Assembly (NCBI RefSeq): GCF_030253575.1
Contig: NC_080558.1
Coordinates: forward strand, 6,830,001 to 6,894,000
Length of the DNA: 64,000 nt
From: Rhododendron vialii
Taxonomy: Eukaryota > Streptophyta > Magnoliopsida > Ericales > Ericaceae
Reading direction: 5' to 3'
The notes beneath the pieces are model-generated. The model was not told the DNA's origin, did no database searches, and was given only the letters and a program-made list of their open reading frames with translations. The position numbers and the translations under genes were made by a program. Shown here piece after piece: positions 1,131 to 61,935 of the stretch; position 1 is the first letter of the stretch, and each line of letters begins with the position of its first letter.

Positions 1131-1962
1131 CCATGTTGTTTGATAGGATTACTCACTGAGAATGGAAGATTAGATATTGAATATCTGAGAGTTGGAAAGT
1201 TGTTTAAAGAAAAGAGAAATGAAGTGTTAACATATTTAAGCCAAAGTATTCAAAAATTTGAGAAATGAAGTGTTTACATAGTTAACCCCCATGGTTTGAG
1301 GTACCCATTGACTCATTGAGAAGTGTTCAAAAATGGACAAATGGAAACCTGTCTTTATTTCTCATCCTTCCTGTTCCTGGGTTCTCTTAGCTGTCGATAT
1401 CACCACCGTTTGTTGCAATTTGAAGGCGCTTGGGCTTTAAACACTTCTACCATGCAGCAATCCTAATTCGCGAGAAATTTTTGGGTGCCGAGAGCAGTGG
1501 TGGCTTCAGAATTTTAGTTCAGCGGTGATAAAATTACAAAAAAAAAAAATTGTATGCAAAGCTCTATGAAAAATGCACATATTTATATTTGGATAAAATT
1601 TTAGTAGGCCTAATCTATTATGTATATTTGAGCTGTAGTACCTACACACTTACAAACTTAAGTGATTTTTCACTTACTTTGACTATATATGAATGATTCG
1701 ATGCCAATAGCATTTTTTTGAATCCAGCCCCCTGGAAATCCAGTAGGCCCGCCCCTGGCCGGGAGGGTACCACGTCGCATCCATACATGGTGCCCATTAA
1801 CCAATCAGAGGAAGACAACTATTCTTTGATGCAGTATTCGGTCAACAATTAACCCTTGAAGATAACGAAGAGAATAACAGCAATTTAAATTTCTCTCTCC
1901 ATTTCCGCTTCCCCAATAATAGTCAAAAGGCTCAAAACACAGACAAAGTCAGAGCACCATCT
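1131..1962. other. Upstream region of first F-box gene
   Basis: No gene is seen. Roughly 1490-1765 has the look of a decayed transposon ('gtggcttcagaattttagtt' at one side, 'ggcccgcccctgg' at the other), but I found no clean termini. The last ~120 bp is a pyrimidine-rich leader whose final bases ('agcaccatctatggcg') match the leaders of the other F-box copies. Confidence 0.35.
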
Positions 1963-20449: not shown

Positions 20450-21799
20450 GACAATATTCATTTGAGAACAAACAGTTTATTCATAGGCCGGTTCGGCCGA
20501 TTGAGCTTTAAAAGTGAAATAGTAATTTATTTTCTGTCTTTATACCAAAAAAAAATATATTGCGTTTCTTAGTTTTGCGTCAATTTGTTGTTAATTCGTT
20601 TCAGCGAGAGTAACATCTAACAAGTATAAAAAATTTAGTCGAAACGAATACTGTAATTTTTTTTAAAGACAAAAGAATAAGTTCTAAAAAATTGTTTTTT
20701 TGACTCGCATTTGTCCTTATTTAAAATATTATGAGTTTTGATCATAATTTTTACTTTTTTTATTTCTCTTGTCGAGACGAATCGATAGGTCACAAAAGTT
20801 TCACATAAAATTTACAAATGCAAAAATAAATGAAGTATGTACGTGCAGCAGGATTTCGGCAAAAAATGATCAAAATCTTTTGAAGGGCTTTCCCCCGTCA
20901 CGGGGACAGCTTCCATATTCTATCTCAGGTAGTGCTGCAGGCCTTCCATTTCAAGGAAATCATCCGTGAGATTAATGCCACTTGAAATGGCCCAGTAAGG
21001 TTTTGTCCAATGGCACTATCATTCTTAATTAAATTGATCAAGCTCCACAATTGAAGCAGATGCCAATTAGTCAAACAGAAAACTAAACTAAAACAATAGA
21101 ACAAAAAGAATGAGTCGGGCTGTGACAATATGGATCGTCGCAGTATGTCTTTTCTATCATTTGGGCTACACTCACTTCTTGGCCAAACAAACAGTTTCAC
21201 GTTTTTGCCAAAATAAAAAACATAAAAACAGTCTACACATTGGTGTATTTCATATATCTACTTGAACACAGTTTGAACAAAAAAATCAGTTCCAACACAT
21301 AATATTCAATGCATATACCTGCTTCCCATTGTCTCACAAATCAATCTAAAATCCATGGCACCATTCAAACCCATTGGCCTACTTGCCATTGACCATAATA
21401 TTCAAAAAGCAAAAGTCCGCCTCTACTGCAACCATGCAAACCCATTCAATACATAATACATACTTGCCAAGACAAACAAAGCACCATGCATTACAATAAA
21501 TCAATACCATCCATTTCCTGTTTCGGCGTGTCGGATACGGACACGCCCATGAATTATATTCAGACATTGCTCCACATTATAACACATTTGCCAAAAGATA
21601 AAAATCTCTGAAAACTAATTTGCCTACCTACATGTCTTTCATGCCAAGAAAAGGAGTGTTATCGGAGCACAAACTTAAATTGAGTTCCACCAACATTACG
21701 AATAAAGTCATATCTTCATCTTCAGCAAAAAGTACTAAGTACTAATGTTATCTATATTAAACAAAAAAACCAATAGCATAATATGCACATACCCTACCT
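20450..21799. other. Non-coding MULE interior
   Basis: No gene is supported. About 20576-20830 resembles the fold-back element of the macrosatellite units: 'tttgatcataatttt', 'atttctcttgtcgagacga', and inverted 'gcgtcaatttg' and 'aaatttacaaatgc' arms. Confidence 0.45.
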
Positions 21800-22971: not shown

Positions 22972-23045
22972 CTAAAGCATGGAATTCAACATAAAAGCCC
23001 TACGTTGAACATTTGAAATATTTTCTACAAACGATTGCAACATAC

Positions 23046-23747
23046 CTGAGTGGTCAGCAAATATAGTCTCCCCCATAAGCAACAACAAGTAGCCGCGTGC
23101 CTGGCGCGCAACAACCTCTGGGTCTGCCCCTTCCTCTACTTGGCCAGTGAACCTATCACTTAACCAGCTAGCCTTGACCTTCATCCCGTTTATGTCCGAC
23201 TCTTCTGTAGGTTGTTCCCCCAATAGATGCTTACATAAATCATTAGGCTTCAAATTTGTATTTCCAGTCATAGGTTTACCGTCAACTGGAATGCCTAACA
23301 AAACCTCAACATCTTGTAGCGTGATTGTGGACTCACCGGGCCGCAAGTGAAACGTGTGTGTCTCAGGCCGCCATCGCTCTAAAAGTGCTGTAATGAGACC
23401 CCAATCCACGGACACAAAAGGCAATGAACAAAGGCCCTCTAAACGGGCACGCCGTATCAACTCTAAAACAGGGGGTGATGGCCATGGCAATGCTCGTATA
23501 CCTTTCTTCGCACTACGAACTCTGACTTTTTTTGAATCCACAGGCCGTGTGCGCTAAAATAAATTGTTAATTCATGGATTAGATTGACAAATTTACACTA
23601 AAGTTTATGAAGTACGTACATTATCCAAATGTCACTTACATCAGCTTCCCAGACTTCTCGAGAGCGGTGCTGATGTTGTAAACATAGAATCGACCCATCT
23701 CTGGGCCCCGGGTCAGGCCTACGAAGCGCATTAAGGTTGAGGTCCAT
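23046..23747 (-). pseudogene. Plant mobile domain (PMD/MAIN-like) gene, 5' part
   Basis: Exon 1 is 23747-23640: ATG, then MDLNLNALRRPDPGPRDGS and LCLQHQHRS, ending at a perfect donor gat|gtaagt. The intron is 23639-23554, with acceptor 'ttattttag'. Exon 2 is 23553-23046 and gives RALPWPSPPVLELIRRA, VDWGLITALLERWRPETHTF, ITLQDVEVLLGIPVDGKPM and ARGYLLLLMGETIFADHS, the signature of the PMD fold (PF10536). It ends at a donor-like tcag|gtatg. The usual second half of the domain is not found, so the gene appears truncated or partly captured. PMD genes are often carried by MULE and gypsy elements; MAIN and MAIL1 are the cellular relatives. Confidence 0.78.
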
Positions 23748-33504: not shown

Positions 33505-34500
33505 AAAAGTGTGTGAATTGTGCAGATGAGGTGTGAATTCTGTATTTAGGGGTGTAAATTTTGCATTTAGAGGTGTGAATTTTGTATTTAGAGGTATCGA
33601 TTTTATAATTTGAGGGGTGTAAATTGTGTAGACGGGTGTGAATTCTGTATTTAGAGATGTGAATTATGTAATTCATGGGGTGTGAATTGTGCCGATGGGC
33701 TACATTCAGGGGTGTGAATTCTAGAGGTATGAAAAAAAGCAGATGAGATGTGAATTCTGAGGGTGTGAATTTTTTTGGTGGAGTGAATTCTTTTTTTGAA
33801 TGTGTGAATTCTTAATTTAGTGACGTGAATTCTATCTTTTTCAAGGGTGTGAATTTTTTTTTTTGAATATGTGAATTCTTTTTTTTTGAAGGTGTGAATT
33901 CTTAATTTGGTGGTGTGAATTCTATCTTTTTCGAAGATGTGAATTCTGCAAAAGGGTATGATATGAAATTACCGGGATGTGAATTATGCAAAAGATATGG
34001 AAAGGACTGTAAATTGATATGTGGATTTTAAGGACATGAATTCTGTAAAGGTGTGTGGATTTGTAAATGGTGTATTGGGGCCAAATCCACACACTCAAGA
34101 ATTCACACCAATAATTTATCCAAAATTTTGAGGGCATGAATAGTGCATAGGGGTGTGAATGAGTGTCAATTCAAATGTGTGAATTCTTGCAAATGGATGT
34201 GAATTCTACAAAAGGGATGAATAGTAAAAATGAGACGTGAATTCTGAAGGTGTGAATTTTTGGGGTGTGAATTCTGTGAGGTGTGAATTTTTGGGGTGTG
34301 AATTCTGTGGGGTGTGAATTTCAAATGAGTGTCAATTCAAAGGTGTGAATTCTGCACAGGGGATGAATAGTAAAAATGAGATGTGAATTCTGCAAAAGGG
34401 TGTGAATTCTTGGGGTGTGAATTCTGTGAGGTGTAAATTCTTGGGGTGCGAATTTTGTGGGGTGCGAATTTTGTGGAATGTGAATTCTGTAGGTTGTTGA
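33505..34500 (+). repeat. Degenerate 'GGTGTGAATTCT' minisatellite, ~1 kb
   Basis: Dozens of copies of an 11-20 bp unit with core GTGTGAATTCTG or GTGTGAATTTTG, separated by variable spacers such as 'tatttagag', 'caaaaggg' and 'ttggg'. A short inverted stretch lies at 34087-34110 ('ccacacactcaagaattcac'). Numerous EcoRI sites (GAATTC) result from the unit itself. No coding sequence is claimed. Confidence 0.85.
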
Positions 34501-41700: not shown

Positions 41701-41900
41701 ATCAATAACTCAACTTGGCGCTTTGTATGATTACTAACAAGTCTAGCGGCGGTGCGGAATCTAAGCTGGACCGAGTGCGGTGGAAGTCCGTTCGGATTCA
41801 AGCCCTAACCATAAATTCTAGCCAACCCGTATTGCACCATGCTCGAATATTTTCCCTATCCCCCAAAGCACAGACGCAATCACAGCACCATCTATCATCT

Positions 41901-43102
41901 ATGGCGACCAAAAGAAGCTCCAATAACCGAGAACCCGAAATGACCGAGCAGACCCCTCATGGCCTCCTCTCGACGGAAGATTCTCTCCTACTGCCGGATC
42001 TCCCGCCGGAAATCATCTTCCAAATACTGTCGAGACTTCCAGTCAAGTCTCTGTTGCGATTCAGGTGCGTTTCCAAATCATGGCGTTCTTTGATTTCTCA
42101 ACCCCAATTCGTGAGAGCCCATCTCAGTTTAGCATCTACGAAAAGTGATTATACCCACCATCGACTCATTCTAACCGAGTGTCCACCCTCTACTGGTGTC
42201 AAGTCATGCTCTCTTTACTCCATTCTGAATGAGCAATCCGATACTGCTGTTGATCTTGACTGCCCTTTGAACGTACCTCGTTCTAGAATAATGGTTGTGG
42301 GTTGCTGTGATGGTTTAGTGTGCATCGCAGCTGGAAACGAAGTATGTATTTGGAACCCGCCTACTAGGAAATCCAAGAGATTACCGAATGTTGACATGAG
42401 GTACCTTTTTTATAGGTATGGGTTTTGTTATGATGAGTCTAGTGATGATTACAAGGTGGTGGGATTCTTCTCTACTGCTGGGGCAAGCGGTGGTGATCTC
42501 GAAGTCAAGTTGTATTCTTCAAAAACAGATTCGTGGAGGAGTATTGTAGACTCTTCTGATTTTATACCTTGGAATGATTCAGGGATATATGTGAAGGGGG
42601 CCCTTCATTGGGCCCCCTGGGGGGAGTCCCATAAGGCTATTGTTTCTCTTGATTTGGCAAAGGAGAAGTTTGGAGAGGTTTTGCAACCTGATTATGGAGT
42701 TGTTATTCTCAGTCGATGCTGGCTGTTGTAAGTGGATGCCTGTGTGTATTTCGCCACTATGATGAAGCTTGTGATGTATGGGTGATGAAGGAATACGGTA
42801 GAGGAGAGTCTTGGATCAAATTGGTTGTTATACCTTATGTTACACATCCATCGAATTATGAGTATTCCCCACCATTGTGCATTTTGAAGAATGGTGATGT
42901 TTTACTGGATATCCGGACGCATTTAGTTCGCTACTATCCAAGAGATGGCACCTTTGCTTATCCTACAATTCGTAATTGTTTTCTGAATTTTGATGCGTAT
43001 CCCTACATTGAGAGCCTAGTCTCGCTTGACACACTGGGGTTCGATTGCGATTTGTCTTCTAAGAGGAGTAAAGGTAAATTAAATGTTTTAATTATGTCTT
43101 GA
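41901..43102 (+). pseudogene. F-box/FBA gene with a single frameshift
   Basis: Start ATGGCGACC at 41901 by alignment with paralogues, although the frame is open from 41715. It has an intact F-box (LPPEIIFQILSRLPVKSLL, CVSKSWRSLI) and the first two thirds of the FBA domain (VGCCDGLVC, IWNPPTRKSKRLP, YGFCYDESSDDYKVVGF). Relative to the 5921 gene one base is missing near 42696-42700, in 'gattatggagttgtt'. The first frame therefore ends at 42731 while the C-terminal third (CLCVFRHYDEACDVWVMKEYG through RYYPRDGTFAYPTI) continues one frame over to 43102. As sequenced the product would lose the last part of FBA. Everything else is intact, so a recent mutation or a base-calling error are both possible. 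Confidence 0.87.
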
Positions 43103-46790: not shown

Positions 46791-47588
46791 TACTTGCATA
46801 GCTCTAGGAGCACCTGCAGCCGATGGCTCTTTGGGAAACTTATTTGTATGGTTATGGCTTGTTCAGTGTTATCAATGTTTAATGGATGAATTTTGCCTCC
46901 GCTTTTGCTTTTGCCCTCTTTAGAACATTAATGGTGTTCAGTGATATTTTTAGTCTTGAGATGGCAAGAACTTCAAATGCATTGCCAGACACAAAGCCAC
47001 AAGTTGTTACCGATTTTGGGTGAGATCAATAGCTTGGTATGGAATCCAAGAGAACGTGTGCGTAGTGCATTAGGACTGTTCGGTTCAAAAATGGATTTCA
47101 TGTGCTCCCCTTCAATTTGGCCACCTCCACCTACTCTAGTCTCAACTCTATAGAAGTTGAAAGGGTGTTCTCTATGTGTTTGTCTGTGGGTTCGAGAAAA
47201 ATCAAAACCCTACACTGTGGACGTGGCTCAAGGCTTTGTTCATTTTTATTCAGCATCTTTAAAGATGCATCTAGCGCCCTAGCTGTGCTCTGTTTTGGCT
47301 TGGGCTTGATTGGTTTCAGCAGAATAAGATTGTGTTTGGAATAACTGGAAAAAGGTCCTCAAATGTAGTTCATTGGATTTATTTACTGTACTTTTGGTAA
47401 CTTGATTGAGAGAGAGAAAGAGAGAGAGATTTCAACACTGTTGGTTTGAGGGAGAATTGAATGTCTCAATTTTCCTTGTAGGGAGAAAATTATTTATTTT
47501 CTTTTCTTTTCTCTCCATTTCTTCCTATCCAAACGGGTTGTTAGTGGGTCAGACAGGCATAAAAATCATCACCAATAGAGATTTTATG

Positions 47589-47855
47589 GGGTTTGAGTCT
47601 CGAAGGCTTATTATGGAAGAAATCATTAAAGCTCTAGAGCATGATGAGATCAACATTATTGGGGTTTGCGGGATGGGCGGTGTGGGCAAGACAACTATGG
47701 TAAATGAAGTTGCAAAAAGATCAAAAGAAGATAATCACTTTGACGAAGTTGCAATAGCCGTCGTTAGCCAAGAGCCAAACCTAACCAATGTTCAGGCTTG
47801 CATTGCAGACATGCTTGGTTTGAAAAATCTTTGTGACGTGGAGAGCCCGATAGCC
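47589..47855 (+). pseudogene. NB-ARC (NBS-LRR resistance gene) fragment
   Basis: The plus frame encodes about 85 residues of a CC-type NBS-LRR protein. It starts with FESRRLIMEEIIKALEHDEI, then IIGVCGMGGVGKTTMVNEVA with an intact P-loop (GMGGVGKTT), then FDEVAIAVVSQEPNLTNVQ (RNBS-A-like). Coding ends abruptly around 47855, before kinase-2, where macrosatellite sequence begins. No coiled coil precedes it; upstream is F-box flank shared with 13640. So both ends are severed and a functional immune receptor is impossible. In full-length family members this region binds ATP/ADP. Confidence 0.88.
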
Positions 47856-47926
47856 GACAGCTGATCTCCTAATTAGAAGCCCGACGCTCCGGCCAAAATG
47901 ATGGGTATACTAATCCCGCTTTAAGA

Positions 47927-48205
47927 AAATCGCAGCCAAGTGTCAAAAGAAGCGGCCAAGAGTAAAAAAAAGTGGCCAAGTGTACTAAAGCGCGGCCAAG
48001 AGTAATAACAAGCGAAATGGAGCAATAAGAAGCGGCCAAGTGTAATAAAACGCGGCCAAGTGTAATAAGACGCGGCCAAGAGCAATAACAAGCGGCTAGG
48101 ACCAATAACAAGCGGCCAAGAGTAATAAAAACTGGCCAAGTGTCAAAACAAGCGGCTAAGAGTAATACGATTCGGCCAAGTGTAATATGATGCAGCCAAG
48201 ATATC
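47927..48205 (+). repeat. 20-21 bp minisatellite, unit 1
   Basis: About 13 tandem copies of the form GCGGCCAAGAGTAATAAGAA, alternating in part with GTGTAATAA and GAGCAATAA variants. Minus-strand open frames across it (LLLLAASYYSWPL-type) are products of the period and are not genes. Confidence 0.88.
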
Positions 48206-48412
48206 TGAAAACAAATCATACACTAAAACGCGTGTTCAGTAACCACTCTTTAAAAAATAGCGGGCAGATGTCAAAACATGCTGCCAGGAGTAATAAGATG
48301 CGGCCAAGATGTCCGAAAACAGATCATACGCACACTAATCGCGCTTTTACCAGTAGTAAGCAAGAAGAAAACACATGAATGACAACGATTTGAGCTTCAT
48401 GCTTTGTATTGT

Positions 48413-48793
48413 TCAAGCTGTTGTTGAGAGGCGGGATGGAGTTGAAGAACTACGGAGATGTATGAACGACAATGATTTTACTGATGAAGCCGGGGTGGAG
48501 CAGCGTTGAAGCCGAAGGTTTGATCCATGCTTTTGCTTCTGGAGATCGATCACACCCTCAAATGTAAGAAATCTATGAGCCCGGCCATGGATGTCATATG
48601 TAGGAATAAAATTGTTCTTTTTCCATTTGAAAGTGCCTCGAGGCCCAATTTTTTGTTCAAGATTTGTCTCATATACAAATAAATATGGGCTAACACAAGA
48701 ACCAATGACCTTTGGATTTTTTTTTTGTTGATCCAAAATTATGGAGTTCACAGTTAGATTTTGCACTTTTGAAAATGTTGGCATGGAATTCAA
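48413..48793 (-). other. Conserved 126-codon open frame, unknown
   Basis: The minus frame contains CVSPYLFVYETNLEQKIGP and KKNNFIPTYDIHGRAHRFL. Unit 3 (56130-56510) keeps the same 126-codon frame with about a dozen substitutions; unit 2 does not keep it. I recognise no family. It may be a captured exon or chance. Confidence 0.2.
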
Positions 48794-49407
48794 TGATTCA
48801 TTACATCAAAAAAGAAAAAAGTGAATGCTCCCAAGTAGCAATTCAAATTGCGCCTGAGACACTTTACAAGAAGAGAGAAAATGTGGAAGCGCCCGAGCAC
48901 AACTTATATACACCTGGGGGGCACGCGAATTGCGCCTGACGTGCATGTGATGCAGCAAATATTTTTAATTTATTTTTTTACCTCACTTTTTCTAGTCCGA
49001 ATTGGCAGGAGACTAAAAAAAGGCAATCCTTTAAACATTATAAGGATTGTTAAAGCATAAGAGAGGCACAAGAAGGTGGTACAAAGTGATTCCATGAGAT
49101 CCATCCATGATGATTTCATTGGCATATGTTTTTTTTTTTAGGTATACATGATTCAAAAGTAATCTGTGATTCGTGGTTTGGGCCGCCGGTTGGTTGGTGT
49201 ACTTATTCTTGTAAACTGGGTCAGTAACATGAGAGTTCACTTTGATGAAACATAATTCCTTGATGTGCTTTCACTGTTATTGGCTTTTGTTGCAATTCCA
49301 ACGGTAAATTCTTAGAAATCCGCAAGCAAATAGGACCTGGAATATGTGAATGTATACGTCTAGGAGTATAATGCATTTAGATGTGCATTTCTGAATCCCA
49401 GCAGTGG

Positions 49408-49509
49408 ATGGAGGTGGCATTTGAGCGAAAAGATGCAGACGATTGGATTTATATAGGGAAAGGAGCTGCCAATCTCGTTCTTGCTCACTCCGAATCCTCT
49501 CCTGTATTT
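49408..49509 (+). pseudogene. IPK1: IPK1 (inositol-pentakisphosphate 2-kinase) exon-1 fragment, unit 1
   Basis: The ATG opens a frame encoding MEVAFERKDADDWIYIGKGA followed by ANLVLAHSESSPVF. This matches the N-terminus of plant IPK1, which starts with ME....KDA.DWIY.GEGGANLVLAY..SSP.F and contributes the glycine-rich ATP loop. IPK1 makes phytate (InsP6) from InsP5. A plausible acceptor 'tgaatcccagcag' lies 3 bases before the ATG and a donor 'gtgtct' follows codon 34. No later IPK1 exon is found in the unit, so this is a captured fragment, not a kinase. Family assignment rests on one 34-residue match seen in three copies. Confidence 0.72.
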
Positions 49510-50404
49510 GTGTCTTCATTTATGCTTCACCTTTTTGATCATTTCTTTGTGCCTCTTCTTTTAATTTTTGATTATACAATAATTCAACTGAGAATTTTTC
49601 CAAACTCCAAAAGCAAAGCAAACAATTAAGTTCTTCCTTCTAAGAATTGGGATTTTCCTTTTGGAGAGTTGTTTGGATTTGCAAATGCATCCTTGTACTT
49701 TGTAAAATGAACTTAAATTCTAGAATAAAATGGAGATTAAAACGAGTTAGTTGACACTTAACATGCTTCACTAAGAAGACGGTGCAATGTACCTACATTA
49801 ATTACTTATGACATTTGCTTTGATTTTGAGTAAACAATTTGATTTTGTCGGATTATTTTTACGCCCTCATGGAACTAAATCTTGATGGACTATCTTTAAA
49901 TGAATATGTGTTGCATAATTGCAAAGCTGCATGTAGACTTACTGTTTTTTTTTTTTGGGGAGGGGGCCAATTAATGTAGATTTATTGTTGGTTAATAATA
50001 CACTACTATCCTTGGGATTTGGACATGCCTGTGCTTGGCAGCGGCACTGCAGAGCGGCCGATCCGACCATTCATCTCGGCGATCGACTGCTCGAATATTT
50101 ATCAAGCAATGAAAGGTTTAGATTTATATGCAATCAAATTCAGTCTGAATGATCTGTACCGAAATGAACGATCGGATGCCGCTCGTCAACCACTTGGCAC
50201 CGGGGTGCTTGGCGGCATCCTTTGGCCCCGTTTGTGATCCATTGACTCCATTCAAGCAAGAAATTGGAAGGGCCCAAAGATTGAGGTGTATGCTTAGACA
50301 GTCACTTGGACACATCTCTATATTAAAATATTAAATGATTGCAGACATTTTTATTTTCCTGCCAAACGAAAATTTCTTTTTGTCTCTATTCATTTTTTTT
50401 TTTT

Positions 50405-50680
50405 TTGCATTTGTTAGTTTGCGTCAAATTTTTGATAACTATTGATTCGTCTCGACGAGATGAGTCAGAGAAACAGAAAATTATGACCCAAGCTCAATTA
50501 TTTTTGGAAAAATAAAAAAAAAGGCCAAACAATATTCAGACTTTTCGAACTTTTTCTTGGCTTTTTTAAAATAATATTTGAGTTTGGGTCATAATTTTAT
50601 GGTTCTTCGATTTCTCTAGTCGAAACGATCCAATAATCCATAAAAGAAAACTTTGACGCAAAACTAACTAACACAAAAGA
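50405..50680. repeat. Fold-back element, unit 1
   Basis: The left arm 'tgcatttgttagtttgcgtc', through 'cgtctcgacgagatgagtc' and 'aaaattatgaccca', pairs with the right arm 'tgggtcataatttta', 'tctctagtcgaaacgat' and 'gacgcaaaactaactaac'. The whole element would form a ~120-bp stem with a short AT loop. Confidence 0.8.
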
Positions 50681-50969
50681 AAATAGAATAAAAATAAAAA
50701 ATAATTAGAAAAACATTATTATGCTTGTAAAAGTATAAAATCCCCAAAAGAGAGCCAGGAAAATATTTTGGGTCAACTGAAAGATTCTTTAAAAGTTTTT
50801 TTTCCTGTTGAGATTTTTTATATGGGTTTCGACTTAAAATGAGGTGGGCCAGCTGGTAAGCTCAATTCAGTCCCCTAACTCCTAGAGCCCCGCTTCAAAA
50901 CCAAAATTCATGATTAGAAGCCCGACGCTCCGGCCAAAATGACGGGTATACTAATCCCGCTTTAAGAAA

Positions 50970-51391
50970 ATCGCGGCCAAGTGTCAAAAAAAGCGGCCAA
51001 CAGTAATAAAAAGCGGCCAAGTGTAGTAAAGCGCGGCCAAGAGTAATAACAAGCGGTTCGGAGCAATAAGAAGCGGAAAGAAGTGGCCAAGAGTAATAAA
51101 AAGCGGCCAAGTGTAATAAAGCGTAGCCAAGAGTAATAACAAGCGGTTTGGAGCAATAAGAAGCGGCCAAGAGCATTAAAAAGCGGCCAAATGTAATACG
51201 ACGCGGCCAAGAGTAATAACAAGCGGCCAAGTGTAATAAGACGCGGCCAAGAGCAATAACAAGCGGACAGGAGCAATAATAAGCGGCCAATAGTAATAAG
51301 AAGCGGCCAAGATTAATAACACCTAGCCAAGTGTCAAAACAAGCGGCTATGAGTAATACGATTTGGCCGAGTGTAATAAGATGCGGCCAAG
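50970..51391 (+). repeat. 20-21 bp minisatellite, unit 2
   Basis: About 20 copies of the same unit, with a short break 'gcggaaagaagtgg' near 51072. Confidence 0.88.
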
Positions 51392-52343
51392 ATATCTGGA
51401 AACAGATCATACACTAAAACGCGTGTTCCGTAACCTCTCTTAAAGAAATAGCGGGCAGATGTCAAAACATGCTGCCAGGAGTAATAAGATGCGGCCAAGA
51501 TGTCCGAAAACAGATCATACGCACATTAATCACACTTTTACCAGTAGTAAGCAAGAAGAAAACGCATGAATGACAACGATTTGAGCTTCATACTTTGTAT
51601 TGTTCAAGCTGTTGTTGAGAGGCGGGATGGAGTTGAAGAACTACGTAGATGTATGAACGACAATGATTTTACTGATGAAGCCGGGGTAGAGCAGCGTTGA
51701 AGCCGAAGGTTTGATCCATGCTTTTGCTTCTGGAGATCGATCACACCCTCAAATGCAAGAAATCTATGAGCCCGGCCGTGGATGTCATATGTAGGAATAA
51801 AATTGTTCTTTTTCCTTTTTAAAGTGCCTCGAGGCCCAATTTTTTGTTCAAGATTTGTCTCATATACAAATAAATATGGGCTAACACAAGAACCAATGAC
51901 CTTTGGATTTTTTTTTTTGTTGATCCAGAATTATGGAGTTCACAGTTAAATTTTGCACTTTTGAGAATGTTGGCATGGAATTCAATGGTTCATTATATCA
52001 AAAAAGAAAAAAGTGAATGCTCCCGAGTAGCAATTTCAAATTGCGCCTGAGACACTTTACAAGAAGAGAGAAAATGTGGAAGCGCCCGAGCACAACTTAT
52101 ATACGCCTGGGGAGCACGTGAATTGCGCCTGACGTGCATGTGATGCAGGAAATATTTTTAATTTATTTTTTTACCTCACTTTTTCTAGTCCGAATTGGCA
52201 GGAGACTAAAAAACGGCAATCCTTTAAACATTGTAAGGATTGTTAAAGCATAAGAGAGGCACAAGAAAGTGGTACGAAGTGATTCCATGAGATCCATCCG
52301 TGATGATTTCATTGGCAATTTTTTTTTTTTTTAGGTATACATG

Positions 52344-53678
52344 TGATAGGTGCATAAATGTGCCTATTTACGCCCCTTAATTTACTCTTGTTATGTCCGT
52401 TTATTATATTATTTAGAGTTTGATACTCGTTTTTATTTATTTCAGAACCTACGGAGCCGTTGGATAATATTTGAAGCTAAATCGATATAAAAATAATTAA
52501 CGATGCAAAGCGAGCTCGATGTCATGCTTAGAGAATGTTATCCTTGCCGATCAAAAATCAACAAGTTGGACCAAGCTTATAATGGATGGAAAGAGAGAAG
52601 CACCCAATAAAATTCCTACAAGATGAATAATTATGTGCATAATGATGGGCCAGTAATTAAAAAGGTCGGCGCCTCCTTTCTCATGAAGATTATTTTCGGC
52701 ACTTATAAAAGGGCTGCAAGGGTTTTTGCTTGGGGATCCGATTGTCTCGCAGAAACGGAAACAGCGGGGGCTGCCAATATATCATATTTTCCCACGGCAG
52801 AAACGGGAGAACGGTGGTGGCCATTAGGATACTTTTTCATCACGCGAAAATAGAGAACTGGGCAGCAATCACCACGCCTCGCGAATCACGGCCAAACCGA
52901 CACAGGAGCTTTGGGTTTTATTCTTTTACTATTTATTAGAAAGCTTTCAGTTTGTTGTTCAATGGAGTTTTGTTCTTACATGATTATTTGTTCTCACTCC
53001 ATGAACGGCTAATCTACTCGGCTAGGGTAATGAGGAGGTCTCTCCAAGTAGCATAGTTGTCTGATTCTAGGGTTTTATGTTCAACTTGATTGTGTGACTT
53101 GATCGATTCATAACTTTTTATGAAGTTTGATATTTTTATGACATTCGAATGTGTTTGTATCCATGGTTTCAAGCACTGTCATACAATGATTTTTAATATT
53201 TCAGGATAGGTTTTGAGATAGACTATACGACGTGAGACGGATCGTGCCGTTGGTTAAATCCAATGAGACGATCTGTGCCATGTTGAGATAGCCTATATGG
53301 AGTGCGAATCTTGATTATCTTTTTGGGAATTATCGATAGGAATTGCTACCCTACGGTAATCTGGTTGAATGTTGAATATGAACACTAGGTTTCGAAACAA
53401 TTGCGTTACAGAGGGAGACTGAATCGGAAACCCTAGTCCCATCTCTCATCAGTTTACAACTCCTTTAATCTGCTTTCTAGTTTAGTTTTAGTTTAATCAA
53501 TCCAAATCAAAATCCAACTTCTCTTTACTTTCTGAATTAAATTAGAAATTAATTGAAACTACTGCAACTCAGCTTTTTACTCCCTGCGGACGATCCTGGA
53601 CTTAACAACTGTTCTTCGGAATACTAGTTAATTCCTTGGTTTTATAAATTATATTTTTGGTGCGAAAACGACAGACCA
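52344..53678 (+). mobile_element. Solo LTR (Ty3/gypsy-like), 1335 bp
   Basis: Starts TGATAGGTGCATAAATGTGC and ends GGTGCGAAAACGACAGACCA, i.e. TG...CA. It is flanked by a perfect 5-bp target duplication 'acatg' (52339-52343 and 53679-53683). Units 1 and 3 show the uninterrupted site 'tacatgattcaaaag' (also 'tttacatgattc'). No internal retrotransposon sequence is present, so it arose by LTR-LTR recombination. The long LTR and its end sequences resemble Athila/Tat-type Ty3/gypsy elements; family is inferred. Small open frames at 52623-52939 are LTR sequence. Confidence 0.93.
52704..52710 (+). promoter_or_regulatory. TATA box of solo LTR
   Basis: TATAAAA in 'cacttataaaagggctgcaa', about 360 bp into the LTR, where the U3 promoter is expected. 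It may still drive outward transcription into the rest of unit 2. Confidence 0.55.
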
Positions 53679-53940
53679 ACATGATCCAAAAGTAATCTGT
53701 GATTCTTGGTTTGGGCCGCCGGTTGGTTGGTGTACTTATTCTTGTAAACTGGGTCAGTAACATGAGAGTTCACTTTGATGAAACATAATTCCATGATGTG
53801 CTTTCACTGTTATTGGCTTTTGTTGCAATTTCAACGGTAAATTCTTAGAAATCTCCAAGCAAACAGGACCTGGTATATGTGAATGTATACGTCTAGGAGT
53901 ATAATGCATTTAGATGTGCATTTCTGAATCCCACCAGTGG

Positions 53941-54042
53941 ATGGAGGTGGCATTTGAGTGAAAAGATGTAGACGATTGGATTTATATAGGGAAAGGAGCT
54001 GCCAATCTCGTTCTTGCTCACTCCGAATCCTCTCCAGTATTT
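53941..54042 (+). pseudogene. IPK1: IPK1 exon-1 fragment, unit 2 (stopped)
   Basis: Same sequence as in unit 1, but codon 7 is TGA (53959-53961) where units 1 and 3 have CGA, and codon 10 is changed (GTA for GCA). The remaining frame (DDWIYIGKGAANLVLAHSES) is intact. Confidence 0.7.
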
Positions 54043-54534
54043 GTGTGTTCATTTATGCTTCACCCTTTTGATCATTTCATTGTGCCTCTTCTTTTAATTT
54101 TTGATTATACAATAATTCAGCTAAGAATTTTTCCAAACTCCAAAAGCAAAGCAAACAATTAAGTTCTTTCTTCCAAGAATTGGGATTTTCCTTTTGAAGA
54201 GTTGTTTGGATTTGCAAATGCATCCTTGTACTTTGTAAAATGAACTTAAATTCTAGAATGAAATGGAGATTAAAACAAGTTAGTTGACACTTAACAGTGG
54301 GTAAATAGAGGAGGCCATAGTAACATGCTTCGCTAAGAAGACGGTGCAATGTACCTACATTCATTACTTATGACATTTCCTTCGATTTTGAGTAAACAAT
54401 TTGATTTTGTCGGATTATTTTTACGCCCTCATGGAACTAAATCTTGATGGACTATCTTTAAATGAATATGTGTTGCATAATTGCAAAGCTGCATGTAGAC
54501 TTATTGTTTTTTTCTTTCTTTCTTTTTTTTTTGT

Positions 54535-54568
<34 letters not shown>
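54535..54568 (+). repeat. 34-base homopolymer G tract
   Basis: Uninterrupted G34 following a T/C-rich run. Unit 1 has only 'ggggaggggg' here and unit 3 has C4-G19. Such a tract is prone to G-quadruplex formation and to assembly error. Confidence 0.9.
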
Positions 54569-54570
<2 letters not shown>

Positions 54571-55007
54571 GGGGGCAAGTAATGTAGACTTATTGTTGGT
54601 TAATAATTCATATCTATCCTTGGGATTTGGACATGCCTATGCTTGGCAGTGGTACTTCTGAGCGGCTGATCCGACCGTTCATCTCGGCGATCGACTGCTC
54701 GAATATTCATCAAGCAATGAAAGGTTTAGATTTATATGCGATCAGATTCAGTCCGAGTGATCTATACCGAAATGAACGATTGGACGCCGCTTGGCACCCA
54801 TTTGGCACCGAGGTGCTTGGCGGCAACCTTTGGCCCCGTTTGTGATCCATTGACTCCATTCAAGCAAGAAATTGGAAGGGCCCAAAGATTGAGGTGTATG
54901 CTTAGACAGTCACTTGGACACATCTCTATATTAAAATATTAAATGATAATATACATTTTTATTTTCCTGCCGAACGGAATTTTCTTTTTGTCTCAATTCA
55001 TTTATTA

Positions 55008-55280
55008 TTTTTGCATTTGTTAGTTCGCGTCAAATTTTTGTCAACTATTGATTCGTCACGACGAGATGAGTCGGAGAAATAGAAAATTATGACCCAAGTA
55101 TTTTGGGAAAAATCCAAAAAAAAGGCCAGACAATATTCAGACTTTTCGGACTTTTTCTTGGCTTTTTAAAAATAATATTTGAGTTTGGGTCATAATTTTA
55201 TGGTTCTTCAATTTCTCTAGTCGAAACGATCCAATAATCCATAAAAAAAACTTTGACGTAAAACTAACTAACGCAAAAGA
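55008..55280. repeat. Fold-back element, unit 2
   Basis: Same inverted arms as at 50405-50680, with small indels. Confidence 0.78.
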
Positions 55281-55557
55281 AAATTGAATAAAAGAAAAAA
55301 ATTATTAATCTTGTAAAAGTATAAAATCCCCAAAAGAGAGCCAGGAAAATATTTTGGGTCAACTGAAAGATTCTTTAAAAGTTTTTTTTTTCTGTAGATA
55401 TTTTTTAAATGGGTTTCAGCTTAAAATGAGGTGGGCCAGCTGATAAGCTCAATTCAGTCCCCTAACTCCTAGAGCCCCGCTTCAAAACACAAATTCCTGA
55501 TTAGAAGCCCAACGCTCCGGCCAAAATGACGGGTATACTAATCCCGCTTTAAGAAAA

Positions 55558-55907
55558 TCGCGGCCAAGTGTAATAAAGCGCAGCCAAGAGTAATAACAAG
55601 CGGTTCGGAGCAATAAGAAGTGGCCAAGAGCAATAAGAAGCGGCCAAGTGTAATAAGACGCGGCCAATTGTAATAACAAGCGGCCAAGTGTAATAAGACG
55701 CGGCCAAGAGCAATAACAAGTGGTTAGGAGCAATAACAAGCGGCCACTGGCAATAATTAGCATCTAGGAGCAATAACAAGCGGCCAGAGGCAATAATAAG
55801 CGGCCAATAGTAATAAGAAGCGGCCAAGAGTAATAACAACCGGCTAAGTGTCAAAACAAGCAGCTATGAGTAATACGATTCGGCCAAGTGTAATAAGATG
55901 CGGCCAA
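55558..55907 (+). repeat. 20-21 bp minisatellite, unit 3
   Basis: About 16-17 copies of the same unit, more diverged in the middle ('gcggccactggcaataatta'). Confidence 0.88.
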
Positions 55908-57128
55908 GATATCCGGAAACAGATCATACACTAAAACGCGTGTTCTGTACCACTCTTAAAAAAATAGCGGCCAGATGTCAAAACATGCTGCCAGGAGTAA
56001 TAAGATGCAGCCAAGATGTCCGAAAACAGAACATACGCACACTAATCATGCTTTTACCAGTAGTAAGCAAGAAGAAAACGCATCATGAATGACAACGATT
56101 TGAGCTTCATACTTTGTACTTTGTACTGTTCAAGCTATTGTTGAGAGGCGGGATGGAGTTGAAGAACTACGTAGATGTATGAACGACAATGAATTTATTG
56201 AAGAAGCCGGGGTGGAGCAGCGTTGAAGCCGAAGGTTTGATCCATGCTTTTGCTTCTGGAGATCGATCACACCCTCAAATGCAAGAAATCTATGAGCCCG
56301 GCCGTGGATGTCATATGTAGGAATAAAATTGTTCTTTTTCCTTTTGAAAGTGCCTTGAGGCCCAATTTTTTGTTCAAGATTTGTCTCATATACAAATAAA
56401 TATGGGCTAACACAAGAACCAATGACCTTTGGATTTTTTTTTTGTTGATCCAAAATTATGGAGTTCATAGTTAGATTTTGCACTTTTGAGCATGTTGGCA
56501 TGGATTTCAATGGTTCATTACATCAAAAAAGAAAAAACTGCGTGCTCCCGAGTAGCAATTCAAATTGCGCCTGAGACACTCTACAAGAAAAGAGAAAATG
56601 TGGAAGCGCCCGAGCGCAACTTATATACGCCTGGGGATCGGAGCACGCGAATTGCGCCTGAGGCGCATGTGATGCAGCAAATATTTTAATTTATTTTTTT
56701 ACCTCACTTTTTCTAGTCCGAATTGGCAGGAGACTAGAAAAAGGCAATCCTTTAAACATTATAAGGATTGTTAAAGCATAAGAGAGGCACAAGAAGGTGG
56801 TACGAAGTGATTCCATGAGATTCATCCGTGATGATTTCATTCGCATATGTTTTTTTTTTTAGGTTTACATGATTCAAAAGTAATCTATGATTCTTGGTTT
56901 GGGCCGCCGGTTGGTTGGTGTTCTTATTCTTGTAAACTGGGTCAGTAACATGAGAGTTCACTTTGAGGAAACATAATTCCTCGATGTGCTCTCACTGTTA
57001 TTGGCTTTTGTTGCAATTCCAACGGTAAATTCTTAGAAATCTGTAAGCAAACAGGACCTAGTATATGTGAATGTATACATTTAGGAGTATAATGCATTTA
57101 GATGTGCATTTCTGAATCCTTGCAGTGG

Positions 57129-57230
57129 ATGGAGGTGGAATTTGAGCGAAAAGATGCAGACGATTGGATTTATATAGGGAAAGGAGCTGCCAATCTCGTT
57201 CTTGCTCACTTCGAATCCTCTCCTGTATTT
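57129..57230 (+). pseudogene. IPK1: IPK1 exon-1 fragment, unit 3
   Basis: Open copy: MEVEFERKDADDWIYIGKGA then ANLVLAHFESSPVF, with acceptor 'gaatccttgcag' and donor 'gtgtgt'. Later IPK1 exons are absent. Confidence 0.72.
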
Positions 57231-57710
57231 GTGTGTTCATTTATGCTTCACCCTTTTGATCATTTCTTTGTGCCTCTTCTTTTAATTTTTGATTATACAA
57301 TTATTCAACTGAGAATTTTTTCAAACTCCAAAAGCAAAGCAAACAATTAAGTTCTTCCTTCCAAGAATTGGGATTTTCCTTTTGAAGAGTTGTTTGGATT
57401 TGCAAATGCATCCTTTTACTCTGTAAAATGAACTTAAATTCTATAATAAAATGGAGATTAAAACGAGTTAGTTGGCAATTAACAGTGGGTAAATAGAGGA
57501 GGCCATAGTAACATGCTTCGCTAAGAAGACGGTGCAATGTACCTACATTCATTACTTATGACATTTGCTTCGATTTTGAGTAAACAATTTGAGTTTGTCG
57601 GATTATTTTTACGCCCTCATGGAACTAAATCTTGATGGGCTATCTTTAAATGAATATGTGTTGCATAATTGCAAAGCTGCATGTAGATTTATTGTTTTTT
57701 TTTTTGCCCC

Positions 57711-57729
57711 GGGGGGGGGGGGGGGGGGG
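57711..57729 (+). repeat. 19-base G tract preceded by CCCC
   Basis: 'gcccc' followed by G19, at the same point of unit 3 as the 34-base tract in unit 2. Confidence 0.9.
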
Positions 57730-58154
57730 AATTAATGTAGACTTATTGTTAGTTAATAATACACTACTATCCTTGGGATTTGGACATGCCTATGCTTGGC
57801 AGCAGTACTTCTGAGCAGCCGATCCGACCGTTCATCTCGGTGATCGACTGCTCGAATATTCATCAAGCAATGAAAGGTTTAGATTTATATGCGATTAGAT
57901 TCAGTCCGAGTGATCTGTACCGAAATGAACGATCGGATGCCGCTCGGCACCCACTTGGCATCGGGGTGCTTGGCGGCATCCTTTGGCCCCGTTTGTGATC
58001 CATTGACTCCATTCAAGCAAGAAATTGGAAGGGCTCAAAGATTGAGGTGTATGCTTAGACAGTCACTTGGACACATCTCTATGTTAAGATATCAAATGAT
58101 CGCAGACATTTTTATTTTCTTGCCGAACGGAATTTTCTTTGTCTCTATTCATCG

Positions 58155-58420
58155 TTTTGTTTTTTGCATTTGTTAGTCTGCGTCAAATTTTTGTTAACTA
58201 TTGATTCGTCTCGACGAGATGAGTCGCAGAAATAGTTATTTTGGGAAAAATCCAAACAAAGGCCAAACAATATTCAAACTTTTCAGACTTTTTCTTGGCT
58301 TTTTTATAATAATGTTTGAGTTTGGGTCATAATTTTATAGTTCTTCGATTTCTCTAGTCGAAACGATCCAATAATCCATAAAAAAAACTTTGACGCAAAA
58401 CTAACTAACGCAAAAGAAAA
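58155..58420. repeat. Fold-back element, unit 3
   Basis: Same inverted arms. The left arm lacks the segment 'aaaattatgaccca', so pairing is less complete. Confidence 0.75.
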
Positions 58421-58649
58421 TTGAATAAAAATAAAAAAAATTAGAAAAACATTATTAAGCTTGTAAAAGTATAAAATCTCCAAAAGAGAGCCAGAAAAAT
58501 ATTTTGGGTCAATTGAAAGATTCTTTAAAAGTTTTTTTTCCTGTTGAGATTTTTTAAATGGGTTTCGGCTTAAAATGAGGTGGGCCAGCTGGTAAGCTCA
58601 ATTCAGTCCCCTAACTCCCTGAGCCCCGCTTCAAAACCCAAATTCCTGA

Positions 58650-59136
58650 TTAGAAGCCCGACGCTCCGGCCAAAATGACGGGTATACTAATCCCGCTTTA
58701 AGAAAATCGCGGCGAAGTGTCCAAAGAAGCGGCCAAGAGTAATAAAAATCGGCTAAGTGTAATAAAGCGCGGCCAAGAGTAATAACAAGCGGTTGGGAGC
58801 AATAAGAAGCGGCCAAGAGCAATAAGAAGCGGCCAAGTGTAATAAGACGCGGCTGAGAGTAATAACAAGCGGCCAAGTGTAATAAGACGCGGCCAAGAGC
58901 AATAAGAAGCGGCCAAGTGCAATAAGAAACGGCCAAGAGCAATAAGAAGCGGCCAAGTGTAATAAGACGCGGCTGAGAGTATTAACAAGCGGCCAAGTGT
59001 AATAAGACGCGGCCAAGAGCAATAACAAGCGGCCAAGTGCAATAATAAGCGGCCAAGAGTAATAAGAAGCGGCCAAGAGTAATAACAACCGGCCAAGTGT
59101 CAAAACAAGCGGCTATGAGTAATACGATTCGGCCAA
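58650..59136 (+). repeat. Macrosatellite unit 4, truncated
   Basis: Starts 'ttagaagcccgacgctccgg' and holds only the minisatellite, about 430 bp long. It stops at 'gattcggccaa' (59136), where other units continue 'gtgtaataagatgcgg'. Unrelated sequence follows. Confidence 0.88.
58707..59136 (+). repeat. 20-21 bp minisatellite, unit 4
   Basis: About 20 copies, with a recent internal duplication: the run 'gcggccaagtgtaataagac' plus 'gcggctgagagt' occurs at about 58836 and 58947. Confidence 0.88.
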
Positions 59137-59981
59137 ATAGCTTAGCCCACCGTCAAATCGTTACAGCTTAATATCGGCAAAATAGTTTAGTTCTCTCTGA
59201 CCGCCATCAATCCCTCCACGATTTTTGGTAAATCGAAGTATTCATAGTTCAAAACAAGATTTAGCCCTCATCTGCAAGGGATGATGACTATGCCACATGT
59301 GCCAATAATTTATCGCCACCCATACTAAGTGGGTCAACCCTTGTCCCCCAACCACCCAACAAGGGATGACGACCATGTGCCACCCATAAAATTTCCCGCT
59401 AAGTGATAGGTTGGGAGCACCACTTGGACATGCCACATGGTAGTCTAGGACAATTGTATAATTACTCCATTTGCAATCCGTTTTCGAATCACTCCCTTTG
59501 TGCAGATTAAAATAGCTTCTTATTTCGTCACATATGTAGTTTGGGTTTCTCTGGTTGTGCCCCTTATCTGCTAAGTGATCTCCAACAAACGGATCTAACA
59601 CTTCATCATCACCATTTCCATATTAGTTGTGGAACTTTCCCAATTCAATCTCCAATTCCATCCACCTTTCTCTTATGTGGGAAGCCGTCCATATATTGTG
59701 TGCACTCATATCAGGACCAGATTTTCCCATTTTGTAATGCTAGACGGTGCTTGTGATCAGATCTCCAACCCAATCTCCATGTTTCGCAGCATCATATGTA
59801 CCTTGGATGGGAGGGCTTGAAGATCAACGTTTCTATGTGCAATTTTGAATACAATGTATGCTATGTAAGTTTTTTTTTTTTTTGAGGATAGCAATCGAGT
59901 ATCTATCTCACCCTTGAATTCAAACCAAGTCACAGCCAGAACTGGACGACCTCGGGAAATCTTAACATAGTTGTGAATTTT
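59137..59981. other. Region between macrosatellite and retroelement PBS
   Basis: Should contain the 5' LTR of the retroelement if it is complete, but I found no TG start or target duplication at 59137 and no similarity to the solo LTR at 52344. 'cttaaca' ending at 59967 could be the LTR end. Open frames on both strands here match nothing known to me. Confidence 0.35.
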
Positions 59982-59998
59982 TGGCGCCGTTGCCGGGG
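59982..59998 (+). promoter_or_regulatory. Primer-binding site complementary to tRNA-Asp
   Basis: TGGCGCCGTTGCCGGGG is the reverse complement of the 3' end of plant tRNA-Asp(GTC) including CCA. This is the usual primer for minus-strand synthesis in Athila-type elements. Confidence 0.88.
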
Positions 59999-60248
59999 AG
60001 TTAAAACACGGTTGCGTATTTTCAATTTGTTTTTAGTTTAATTCTTTGTTTTATTTAATTTTTTTTTCTTTCCTGTTAGTCTGTTTCAGCATTGCCAGGT
60101 TTTTGAACATCACAAGGATTGTGAAGTTGAATTTATTGGTGGCCAGGCAGATCAAAGCGATTTCGTTTACCCACTGTGAGTTCTCTTTTCGATTACTTTA
60201 TTGTTGGATCGCTGAAATGGTAGTGGAATTAGGGTTTTTGGGATATTT

Positions 60249-61935
60249 ATGCGTCGATATCGGTCGTTATCACCTGAGACAGCGTCTGATACTGATCCTG
60301 AATTTGAGAAAACCCTTCGATCTTTTAGGAATTCTCTTAAAGCAAAACGTGAACGCCCAATTGCTCGTAATATAAACTTTGACGTAATGGGCGACCAAAC
60401 AGGAGCAATTGGTGGGGAACAGGGCTCCCCATTGGTGGAGTGTTTTATTCCAAATGAGTATGAGTCCACTTCGTGCATAGTCATGCCCACGGTAAGAGCC
60501 AACCAATACGAGATAAGGCCAGGCACTTTACAGATGTTGCCCTCATTTTATGGGAAACCAAACGAGGATCCTTATGATAACTTGAACCAATTCATGGAAA
60601 CGAGCAAAATTATTTGCATTCGTGACTTTGATAAGGATGCATTGAAATTACTCCTTTTCCCATTCTCGTTGAAGGATAAGGCCAAACAGTGGTTGAACTC
60701 CTTACCGGCAAACTCCATCACCTCTTGGACTCAGATGTGCGAAGAGTTCCTAAAGAAATATTTCTCCATCGGTAAGACAACCCTTCATAGACAAGAGATC
60801 ACCGGATTTACCCAACACGATGGAGAACAGTTTCATGAATCTTGGGAGAGATTCAATGACCTTCTTAGGACGTGTCCTCACCATGCTATCCCCAAGTGGC
60901 AGCTTGTTCAATCTTTTTACCAGGGTTTGATGGAACCACATCGCCAACTGGTAGATTCTTCTAGTGGTGGGACCTTCCTGCATAAGAATGTGAACGATGC
61001 ATGGAAGTTATTCGAAAACCTTAGTGAAAACTCTCAACATCGTGCATCTTCCCTTAGACATTCGAGAGGGGCAGCGTCTAGTTCTTCCAAACAGAGAGGG
61101 GTCTATGAGGTTCAGCCCTCTAATGACCTTACACATCAAGTAGCTGCCTTGACCAAAACATTGAAAGAATTAATCACTTCGGGTCAACATCCTCTCCCTG
61201 TGGGACATCATCCACCCACTTTTCAGGAGGTGTGTGGGATTTGTGCTAGTCCCATGCATTACATCACTGATTGCCCCTCTGCCTCCCAATATCCAGAGTT
61301 TGTGCAAGAGCAAGTTAGTGCTGCACAAGGGTTCTCCAGGCCAGGCTACGACCCATTTTCTCCCACATACAATGCTGGTTGGAAAGATCACCCAAACTTT
61401 TCTTGGAGGACGCAAAATCAAGGCAGTTCCTCCTCTTTGCAACAGAGACCGCACAACCTAAGTGGTTTCAACCAACCAAAGCCCAATTACCCAAGCAAAT
61501 TTAATCAAATGGCTTCCCAAAGGGCACCACAGCCCTTCCAACAAGCACCTCCTCCTTCTCAGGTGCCCCAGCCTCAACGGTCTCCCAATTTTGACGAGAC
61601 CATGTGACAAGGGATGCAAACAGTGCTCCAAAAACTGCAGGGATTAGAGAGTACCAGCCAACAATGTAATTCCAATACTCAATCCATAGTGCAGTTAGAA
61701 TCCCAAATCGGCCAACTGGCCAATGCGCTTAGCAAGAGAGAGGAGGGTAAGCTACCTAGCCAACCAGTTTCCAATCCTAGGGGTCAATTCCAAGTTGACG
61801 AGCAGCACGCTCCTAACCATCACCAGGAGCAAGCTAAAGCAGTTGTGGCCCTTCGATCGGGCCGAATTGTAGAGACTAGGCCAACAGATGACACTTCGAA
61901 AAAGCAAGATGCTCGATCTTCTGTTTTTAGGCCTA
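60249..61935 (+). pseudogene. gag of Ty3/gypsy element, stopped
   Basis: The first 452 codons hold the retrotransposon gag domain at about residues 85-270 (LPSFYGKPNEDPYDNLNQF, KAKQWLNSLPANSITSW, QFHESWERFNDLLRTCP, QSFYQGL) and a Pro/Gln-rich tail with a cysteine motif (CGICASPMHYITDC). A TGA at 61605-61607 interrupts it. The same frame then continues with the downstream gag part (QLESQIGQLANALSKREEGK, AVVALRSGRIVE) until a frameshift near 61930. Confidence 0.85.

Follow-up and report, generated by a model that had tools for sequence, protein, structure and literature searches.

In the macrosatellites D4Z4/DUX4 and RS447/USP17, the repeat unit holds a complete open reading frame. How satellite families originate is an open question, because their parent sequences are usually unrecognisable. 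Here, we describe an array in Rhododendron vialii that resembles D4Z4/DUX4 and RS447/USP17 in having a kilobase-sized unit, repeated head to tail, with gene sequence inside, but differs from them in that its unit consists of an upstream region, one exon and introns, with no intact gene. The array also resembles satellites with higher-order repeats, as these are generally known, in having a period of 15.4-15.9 kb with 11 copies on C2, but on C2 a Gypsy element with its coding frames is part of the higher-order unit. The gene concerned is IPK1, which encodes the phytate-making kinase, and none of the top-ranked titles listed in searches of open-licence literature names the present array or any IPK1 satellite. 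We propose that the array is, very probably, a gene-derived macrosatellite made of tandem copies of a truncated IPK1 paralogue. A further set of related systems is found in transposons with multiplied gene fragments, such as the CACTA element Tgm-Express of soybean. Pack-MULEs, gene-carrying Helitrons and Tgm-Express are like our array in that the multiplied gene fragments keep their exon/intron borders (PMC1947982), but here we found no element ends, and the copies are tandem units rather than single insertions.

The window is the whole 64,000-nucleotide stretch analysed (all coordinates are those of the window, and features lie on its forward strand except the fold-back and the solo LTR, to which no strand is assigned). 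Self-alignment shows head-to-tail units at 47867-59136, three of about 3.1 kb and one partial, in agreement with the first-pass annotation: U1 (47867..50907), U2 (50908..55494), U3 (55495..58643) and the partial U4 (58644..59136), which stops within its own minisatellite of 20.6 copies. Outside the minisatellite, U1-U3 are 94-95% alike. U2 is longer than U1 and U3 because a solo LTR (52344..53678) has inserted in it, with the 5-bp target duplication ACATG on both sides. The order of elements previously described (minisatellite, short frame, IPK1-like exon, G tract, GC-rich block, fold-back) recurs in all three full units. The 20-bp minisatellite has 13 copies in U1 (47935..48201), 21.5 in U2 (50973..51392) and 17.5 in U3 (55560..55909). 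It is followed in U1 by a spacer (48202..49365), a contiguous stretch of IPK1 homology that takes in 39 bp before the exon, the first coding exon and intron 1 up to the exon-2 boundary (49366..49832), a remnant of IPK1 intron 2 lying directly after intron 1, with exon 2 missing (49837..49946), the GC-rich block (49975..50300) and a MITE-like fold-back (50389..50692), of which a 70% relative lies at 20656-20830. The spacer includes a 44-codon “unknown frame” that we rejected as coding: it can be read through in U1 and U2, but U3 and the three other C2 copies interrupt it and one C3 copy has a frameshift in it (26 matches, 7 of them translated). To the left of the array, an NB-ARC fragment of an NLR resistance gene (47406..47864; Pfam PF00931, E 6e-14, profile positions 5-78 of 248) terminates at the array's edge. 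To the right, the flank with a Gypsy gag frame (59137..61607; Pfam PF03732, E 9e-22) is part of a 15.8-kb higher-order repeat.

The exon of each full unit (49405..49509 in U1, MEVAFERKDADDWIYIGKGAANLVLAHSESSPVF; 53938..54042 in U2; 57126..57230 in U3) matches the first 34 residues of IPK1. Searched against the PDB sequence set, the U1 exon corresponds to Arabidopsis IPK1 residues 1-35 (E 7e-9); there were nine matches up to E 1, of which eight were IPK1 (E about 1e-8 or better) and the ninth (E 0.62) was unrelated to it. The IPK1 identity given by the first-pass annotation is confirmed, as are the kept splice borders (acceptor AG and donor GT in 3/3 window copies), but not the name “exon 1”: this is properly the first coding exon, and the acceptor before it suggests a non-coding exon upstream. 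IPK1 in this species does have such an exon, as residues 1-37 and 33-107 match separately, 0.66 kb apart, in the C6 gene. With the Arabidopsis protein as query, tblastn (E up to 1) gave only the first exon, and no later one, in the window and in 26 stretches of 10 kb; the unit has the N-terminal 34 residues of an IPK1 gene and lacks the remaining exons and the catalytic domain.

Our proposal is based on a shared order of parts between the unit and the 5' end of the genome's own IPK1 genes: the two run colinearly from an upstream region with 20-bp repeats through the first coding exon and intron 1 into intron 2, of which the unit keeps a part. The genome has an intact-looking IPK1 gene on C6 and a cluster on C7 with eight first exons (94 of 108 candidates scored). 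Alignment with C7 covers exon 1 and intron 1 in one order and stops at the exon-2 boundary (E 9e-99 for U1, 1500-1966 of the unit against C7 L037:1150-1658; E 3e-118 for U3). The intron-2 remnant matches a site 161-171 bp after exon 2 in all eight C7 paralogues; with 39 of 39 candidates scored, it was found in 31 array units (23 on C2, 2 on C3, 6 on C11) and the eight C7 genes but not in the C5 and C9 copies, an absence that counts against a gene-derived reading. Upstream of exon 1, where the comparison covered two of the eight C7 copies and the C1 copy, all three have a few copies of a 20-bp motif resembling the unit minisatellite. Homology to the IPK1 upstream region runs over the U1/U2 junction (50822..51060), through the end of U1, the head of U2 and the first 20-bp repeats. 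Aligned with the C7 upstream region, 50840-51060 scores 98, the maximum in 1000 mononucleotide shuffles being 27, and the match begins 1.2-1.5 kb before exon 1 in at least five of the eight C7 copies (40 of 147 candidates scored). The C1 IPK1 copy and the end of U1 share 82% identity. A piece at the unit end, suspected by eye as a tRNA-derived SINE, also lies upstream of that C1 copy; ARAGORN, a tRNA-gene finder that a SINE could escape, found no tRNA there.

Against the proposal, exon 1 and intron 1 are only 74-77% identical to the C7 stretches, and the head and tail pieces 67-73%; hence no IPK1 copy compared is the direct parent. A two-exon fragment on C6 retains exon 2 between the same flanks as in the unit, with the GC-rich block coming after it, and on C3 the GC block likewise comes after an exon-2 match. 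Also against the proposal, neither of the two C7 stretches compared contains a counterpart of the spacer (48202-49365; genome-wide, 40 of 374 candidate places were scored), the GC block and fold-back were found on C7 in none of 40 scored candidates (of 201), and about 800 bp of C7 between the upstream region and exon 1 have no match in the unit.

What the window shows is no more than the left end of a 169-kb domain on C2 in which this kilobase unit, head to tail as in a macrosatellite, carries 23 exon copies: by position, one U1-like, 11 U2-like and 11 U3-like. All but one of them (22/23) belong to the 15.8-kb higher-order repeat with the Gypsy element, which is recent. In the higher-order copies, an LTR of the type in U2 comes after the Gypsy coding frames. 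The right flank follows the partial U4 in all three later copies compared and gag is present in two, the last copy, at the domain's right edge, being without it. Further array copies lie on C3, C5, C9 and C11, and exon and flanks are clustered on several chromosomes. Eight stretches on C3, C5 and C9 (type A) share the upstream region and spacer and then have other DNA in place of the exon, which suggests that what multiplies may be the upstream block and not the gene.

The array copies carry marks of decay. The U2 exon has an in-frame TGA at codon 7, found in 11/11 U2-like copies on C2, and the U1 and U3 exons are open. Among nine aligned copies, five are broken (one stop, four frameshifts) and four open, and four of the five substitutions between the U1-U3 exons are non-synonymous or nonsense. 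C-to-T changes affect 31/151 CG, 22/128 CHG and 32/709 CHH sites, making them roughly four times as frequent at CG and CHG as at CHH (Fisher P 2e-9 for CG and 2e-6 for CHG, each against CHH). Such a bias is as expected of methylated DNA and, as a mutational footprint, suggests that the array is methylated.

Could the exon have been carried in from elsewhere? The first-pass annotation was right that a macrosatellite contains the first coding exon of IPK1, but it took the exon to be captured, and capture into a foreign unit was not borne out: IPK1-gene DNA in native order also makes up the minisatellite, the DNA preceding that minisatellite, intron 1 and part of intron 2, and the C6 intermediate is IPK1-colinear too. 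Capture by a Helitron, Pack-MULE or CACTA-type element followed by tandem amplification is, in our view, very unlikely, even though plant transposons are well known to capture gene fragments (PMC13317346 and PMC1947982), array copies are found on several chromosomes, and the units contain a fold-back and a solo LTR. None of the inverted pairs of at least 14 nt joins the unit ends in U1 or U3-U4 (13 and 5 pairs, all internal), where a Pack-MULE or CACTA element would have terminal inverted repeats, and the two array edges, inspected by eye, have no clear target duplication. Under capture, the spacer, GC block and fold-back could be what is left of the carrier. The search for terminal inverted repeats, together with the inspection of the edges, did not support it.

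Two other readings would give the array a role. By analogy with Arabidopsis, where truncated FOLT2 copies are reported to express siRNA that silences FOLT1 (PMC8042742, citing Durand 2012), small RNAs from the array might silence IPK1 genes in trans. The two cases are alike in having truncated gene copies and an intact copy elsewhere in the genome, and the upstream-region homology in the units and their CG and CHG mutation pattern would fit, but no unit in the window shares a perfectly matching run of more than 12 nt with the 5' 2.3 kb of the C6 gene. With exon 1 of two C7 paralogues the longest such run is 16 nt, although one 2-kb C7 stretch as a whole reaches 22-24 nt. Hence, of the earlier suggestion of small RNAs against the true IPK1 gene, those directed at the intact-looking gene on C6 seem improbable judging by these matches, the C7 stretch leaves some room for silencing of C7 paralogues, and trans silencing overall appears quite improbable. 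Splicing of the exons into a chimeric transcript, or into a short functional one, we consider extremely doubtful: AG/GT borders are retained in the window copies and two exons are open there, but the U2-like copies share a stop, most aligned copies are broken, and no exon 2 follows the first coding exon.

Returning to a truncated paralogue multiplied in tandem, the starting point would have been a tandem duplication of IPK1 paralogues that, as on C7, had short 20-bp repeats upstream. Exon 2 and everything after it may then have been lost from one copy, and unequal exchange between repeat tracts could have amplified the resulting fragment, lengthened the tract and dispersed the fragment. The array copies would be silent, methylated, non-coding and freely decaying, making no kinase, and the array most likely has no function of its own. 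A more far-reaching combination, which we think unlikely, is that IPK1 paralogues seeded a self-spreading satellite family with the upstream 20-bp repeat as exchange point, in which 5' ends multiplied, exons were lost stepwise (several, two, one, none) and several chromosomes were colonised, and that promoter-homologous array small RNAs keep the C7 cluster silent, limiting phytate-kinase dosage.

For annotation, the array is a warning that pseudo-exons inflate IPK1 first-exon counts in this genome. More broadly, it illustrates a gene degenerating into satellite DNA. The apparent stages stand side by side in one genome: an intact-looking gene, a tandem gene cluster with a short upstream repeat, a two-exon fragment, one-exon array units, exon-less units and, later, a higher-order repeat with a retroelement. 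Thus, both a minisatellite and a macrosatellite can be traced here to their origin in a gene.

We propose that the array unit is a fragment of an IPK1 gene rather than a satellite with a captured exon, as the first-pass annotation had it; this is based on two stretches of the unit being colinear with an IPK1 paralogue on contig C7 (L037). The array itself is real, with three full units (U1, 47867-50907; U2, 50908-55494; U3, 55495-58643) and a partial fourth (U4, 58644-59136) lying head to tail. Outside the minisatellite of 20-bp repeats the window units are 94-95% alike, and U2 is longer than U1 and U3 because it holds a solo LTR (52344-53678) with an ACATG duplication at either side. The G run reaches 34 nt in U2 (54535-54568), whereas U3 has a shorter one and that of U1 is interrupted. 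The exon was also rightly assigned to IPK1 (U1 frame against Arabidopsis IPK1 residues 1-35, E 7e-9).

The genome (G000; 533 Mb, 13 contigs, the window being C2:6830001-6894000) holds an IPK1 gene on C6, whose exon matches span residues 1-155 and 167-406 of 451 with no stop. There, residues 1-37 and 33-107 lie on separate exons, which bears out the exon structure first assumed. A cluster on C7 (2.168-2.229 Mb) has at least eight first-exon and at least eight second-exon matches (94 of 108 candidates scored) and is a tandem amplification of IPK1 genes; its three longest matches contain 1-2 stops each, some of which may fall in introns read through.

The first colinear stretch runs from the end of one unit across the head of the following one into the 20-bp repeats. 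Its counterpart on C7 begins about 1.1 kb upstream of exon 1 and includes a few occurrences of the 20-bp motif (window 50840-51060 scores 98; 1000 mononucleotide shuffles of the C7 sequence gave at most 27). This upstream region precedes exon 1 in at least five of eight C7 copies (genome search; 40 of 147 candidates scored) and, with its motif, is also found in the C1 IPK1 copy. The second colinear stretch takes in the exon with the 39 bp preceding it and extends through intron 1 as far as the exon-2 boundary (E against C7: U1 9e-99, U3 3e-118); identity to C7 in exon 1 and intron 1 is 74-77%. Past that boundary the unit goes straight on into a piece of intron 2, which on C7 lies 161-171 bp after exon 2 in all eight copies. 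With all 39 candidates scored genome-wide, this piece was found on C2 (23), C3 (2), C11 (6) and C7 (8), and was not found in the C5 and C9 copies. A fragment at C6:3726981-3728200 keeps exon 1, intron 1 and exon 2, followed by the unit's GC-rich block, and at C3:3.22 Mb an exon-2 match precedes that block at the same distance; exon 2 was thus lost in the course of the unit's formation. Neither of the two C7 stretches compared contains an equivalent of the spacer (48202-49365), nothing in the unit corresponds to some 800 bp of C7, and the C6 gene's 2.3-kb stretch matches the unit only at exon 1 and its borders.

Capture of the exon by a transposon is not supported, since no inverted pair of at least 14 nt joins the unit ends in the regions scanned (U1 and U3-U4). 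Because the array ends inside a 20-bp repeat tract and these tracts range from 13 to 21.5 copies between units, we infer that unequal exchange at the tract would have been the driver. The order of events is likewise inferred, whereas colinearity with IPK1, exon-2 loss, presence on several chromosomes, higher-order amplification and decay are shown. No function of the array was found. Truncated copies were able to silence a gene in the FOLT case (PMC8042742). Silencing of the C6 IPK1 gene in trans is unlikely because the matches are short (at most 12 nt within the 2.3-kb stretch compared); silencing of the C7 paralogues is a possible but weak reading, the longest match being 16 nt in exon 1 and 22-24 nt over 2 kb.

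The fragment copies are decaying. The three window exons differ by five substitutions (three missense, one nonsense, one synonymous), and among nine aligned array or fragment exons (three in the window, six elsewhere) five are broken and four open. Counted from array units alone, in gap-free columns outside the minisatellite and polarised by majority, C-to-T changes hit 31 of 151 CG, 22 of 128 CHG and 32 of 709 CHH sites (Fisher against CHH, P 2e-9 and 2e-6, respectively). Elevated decay at CG and CHG sites is expected of plant heterochromatin, and this signature suggests that the array is methylated.

To the left, an NB-ARC fragment ends at the array edge; to the right, a gag frame (60216-61607) leads into a Gypsy element, whose reverse transcriptase and integrase domains are present in the next higher-order copy. 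Within the gag frame, an Rfam snoR71 match (60787-60889, minus strand; 43.5 bits, cut-off 40) may not truly belong to the family, or may be a snoRNA-like stretch carried by the retroelement. F-box genes flank the C2 array on either side and an F-box-associated (FBA) frame adjoins the C5 copies (F-box/FBA frames: window 1801-3153 and 41709-42731; in fetched stretches, L013 1217-2491 and 7207-8496, L032 8313-9575). The window also holds an inverted repeat (16259-16394/25535-25670; 136-nt arms, 96% complementary, 9.1 kb apart), a plant mobile domain (PMD) fragment (22972-23553, minus strand) and several overlapping minisatellites (33511-34494; basic motif GTGTGAATTC).

On C2, units span 6877867 to 7046809 with 23 exon copies, and 11 U2-like copies are spaced 15.4-15.9 kb apart (mean 15.76 kb). 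All three later copies read have the order LTR, half of U2, U3, partial U4 and right flank, with gag following in two; the one without is the last copy, which lies beside F-box genes where the array ends on the right. The window shares 98.7-99.0% identity with two later copies in right flank and U4, and 96.1-98.4% in the U2 part (U2b) and U3. The same TGA is common to all 11 U2-like copies, so the higher-order amplification is later than this mutation.

Exon 1 with its flanks is present on several chromosomes, in at least 23 copies on C2, 5 on C3, 3 on C5, 7 on C11 and 2 on C9 (40 of 80 candidates scored). On C9 (38.03-38.14 Mb; L015-L025), IPK1-derived blocks are interleaved with several nested tandem repeats, among them a module of about 1.4 kb. 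The spacer is very common (374 candidate places genome-wide, 40 scored), and eight stretches on C3, C5 and C9 carry the upstream block and spacer, then other DNA in the exon's place. Hence the upstream block of the gene, rather than the exon, may have been its best-spreading part.
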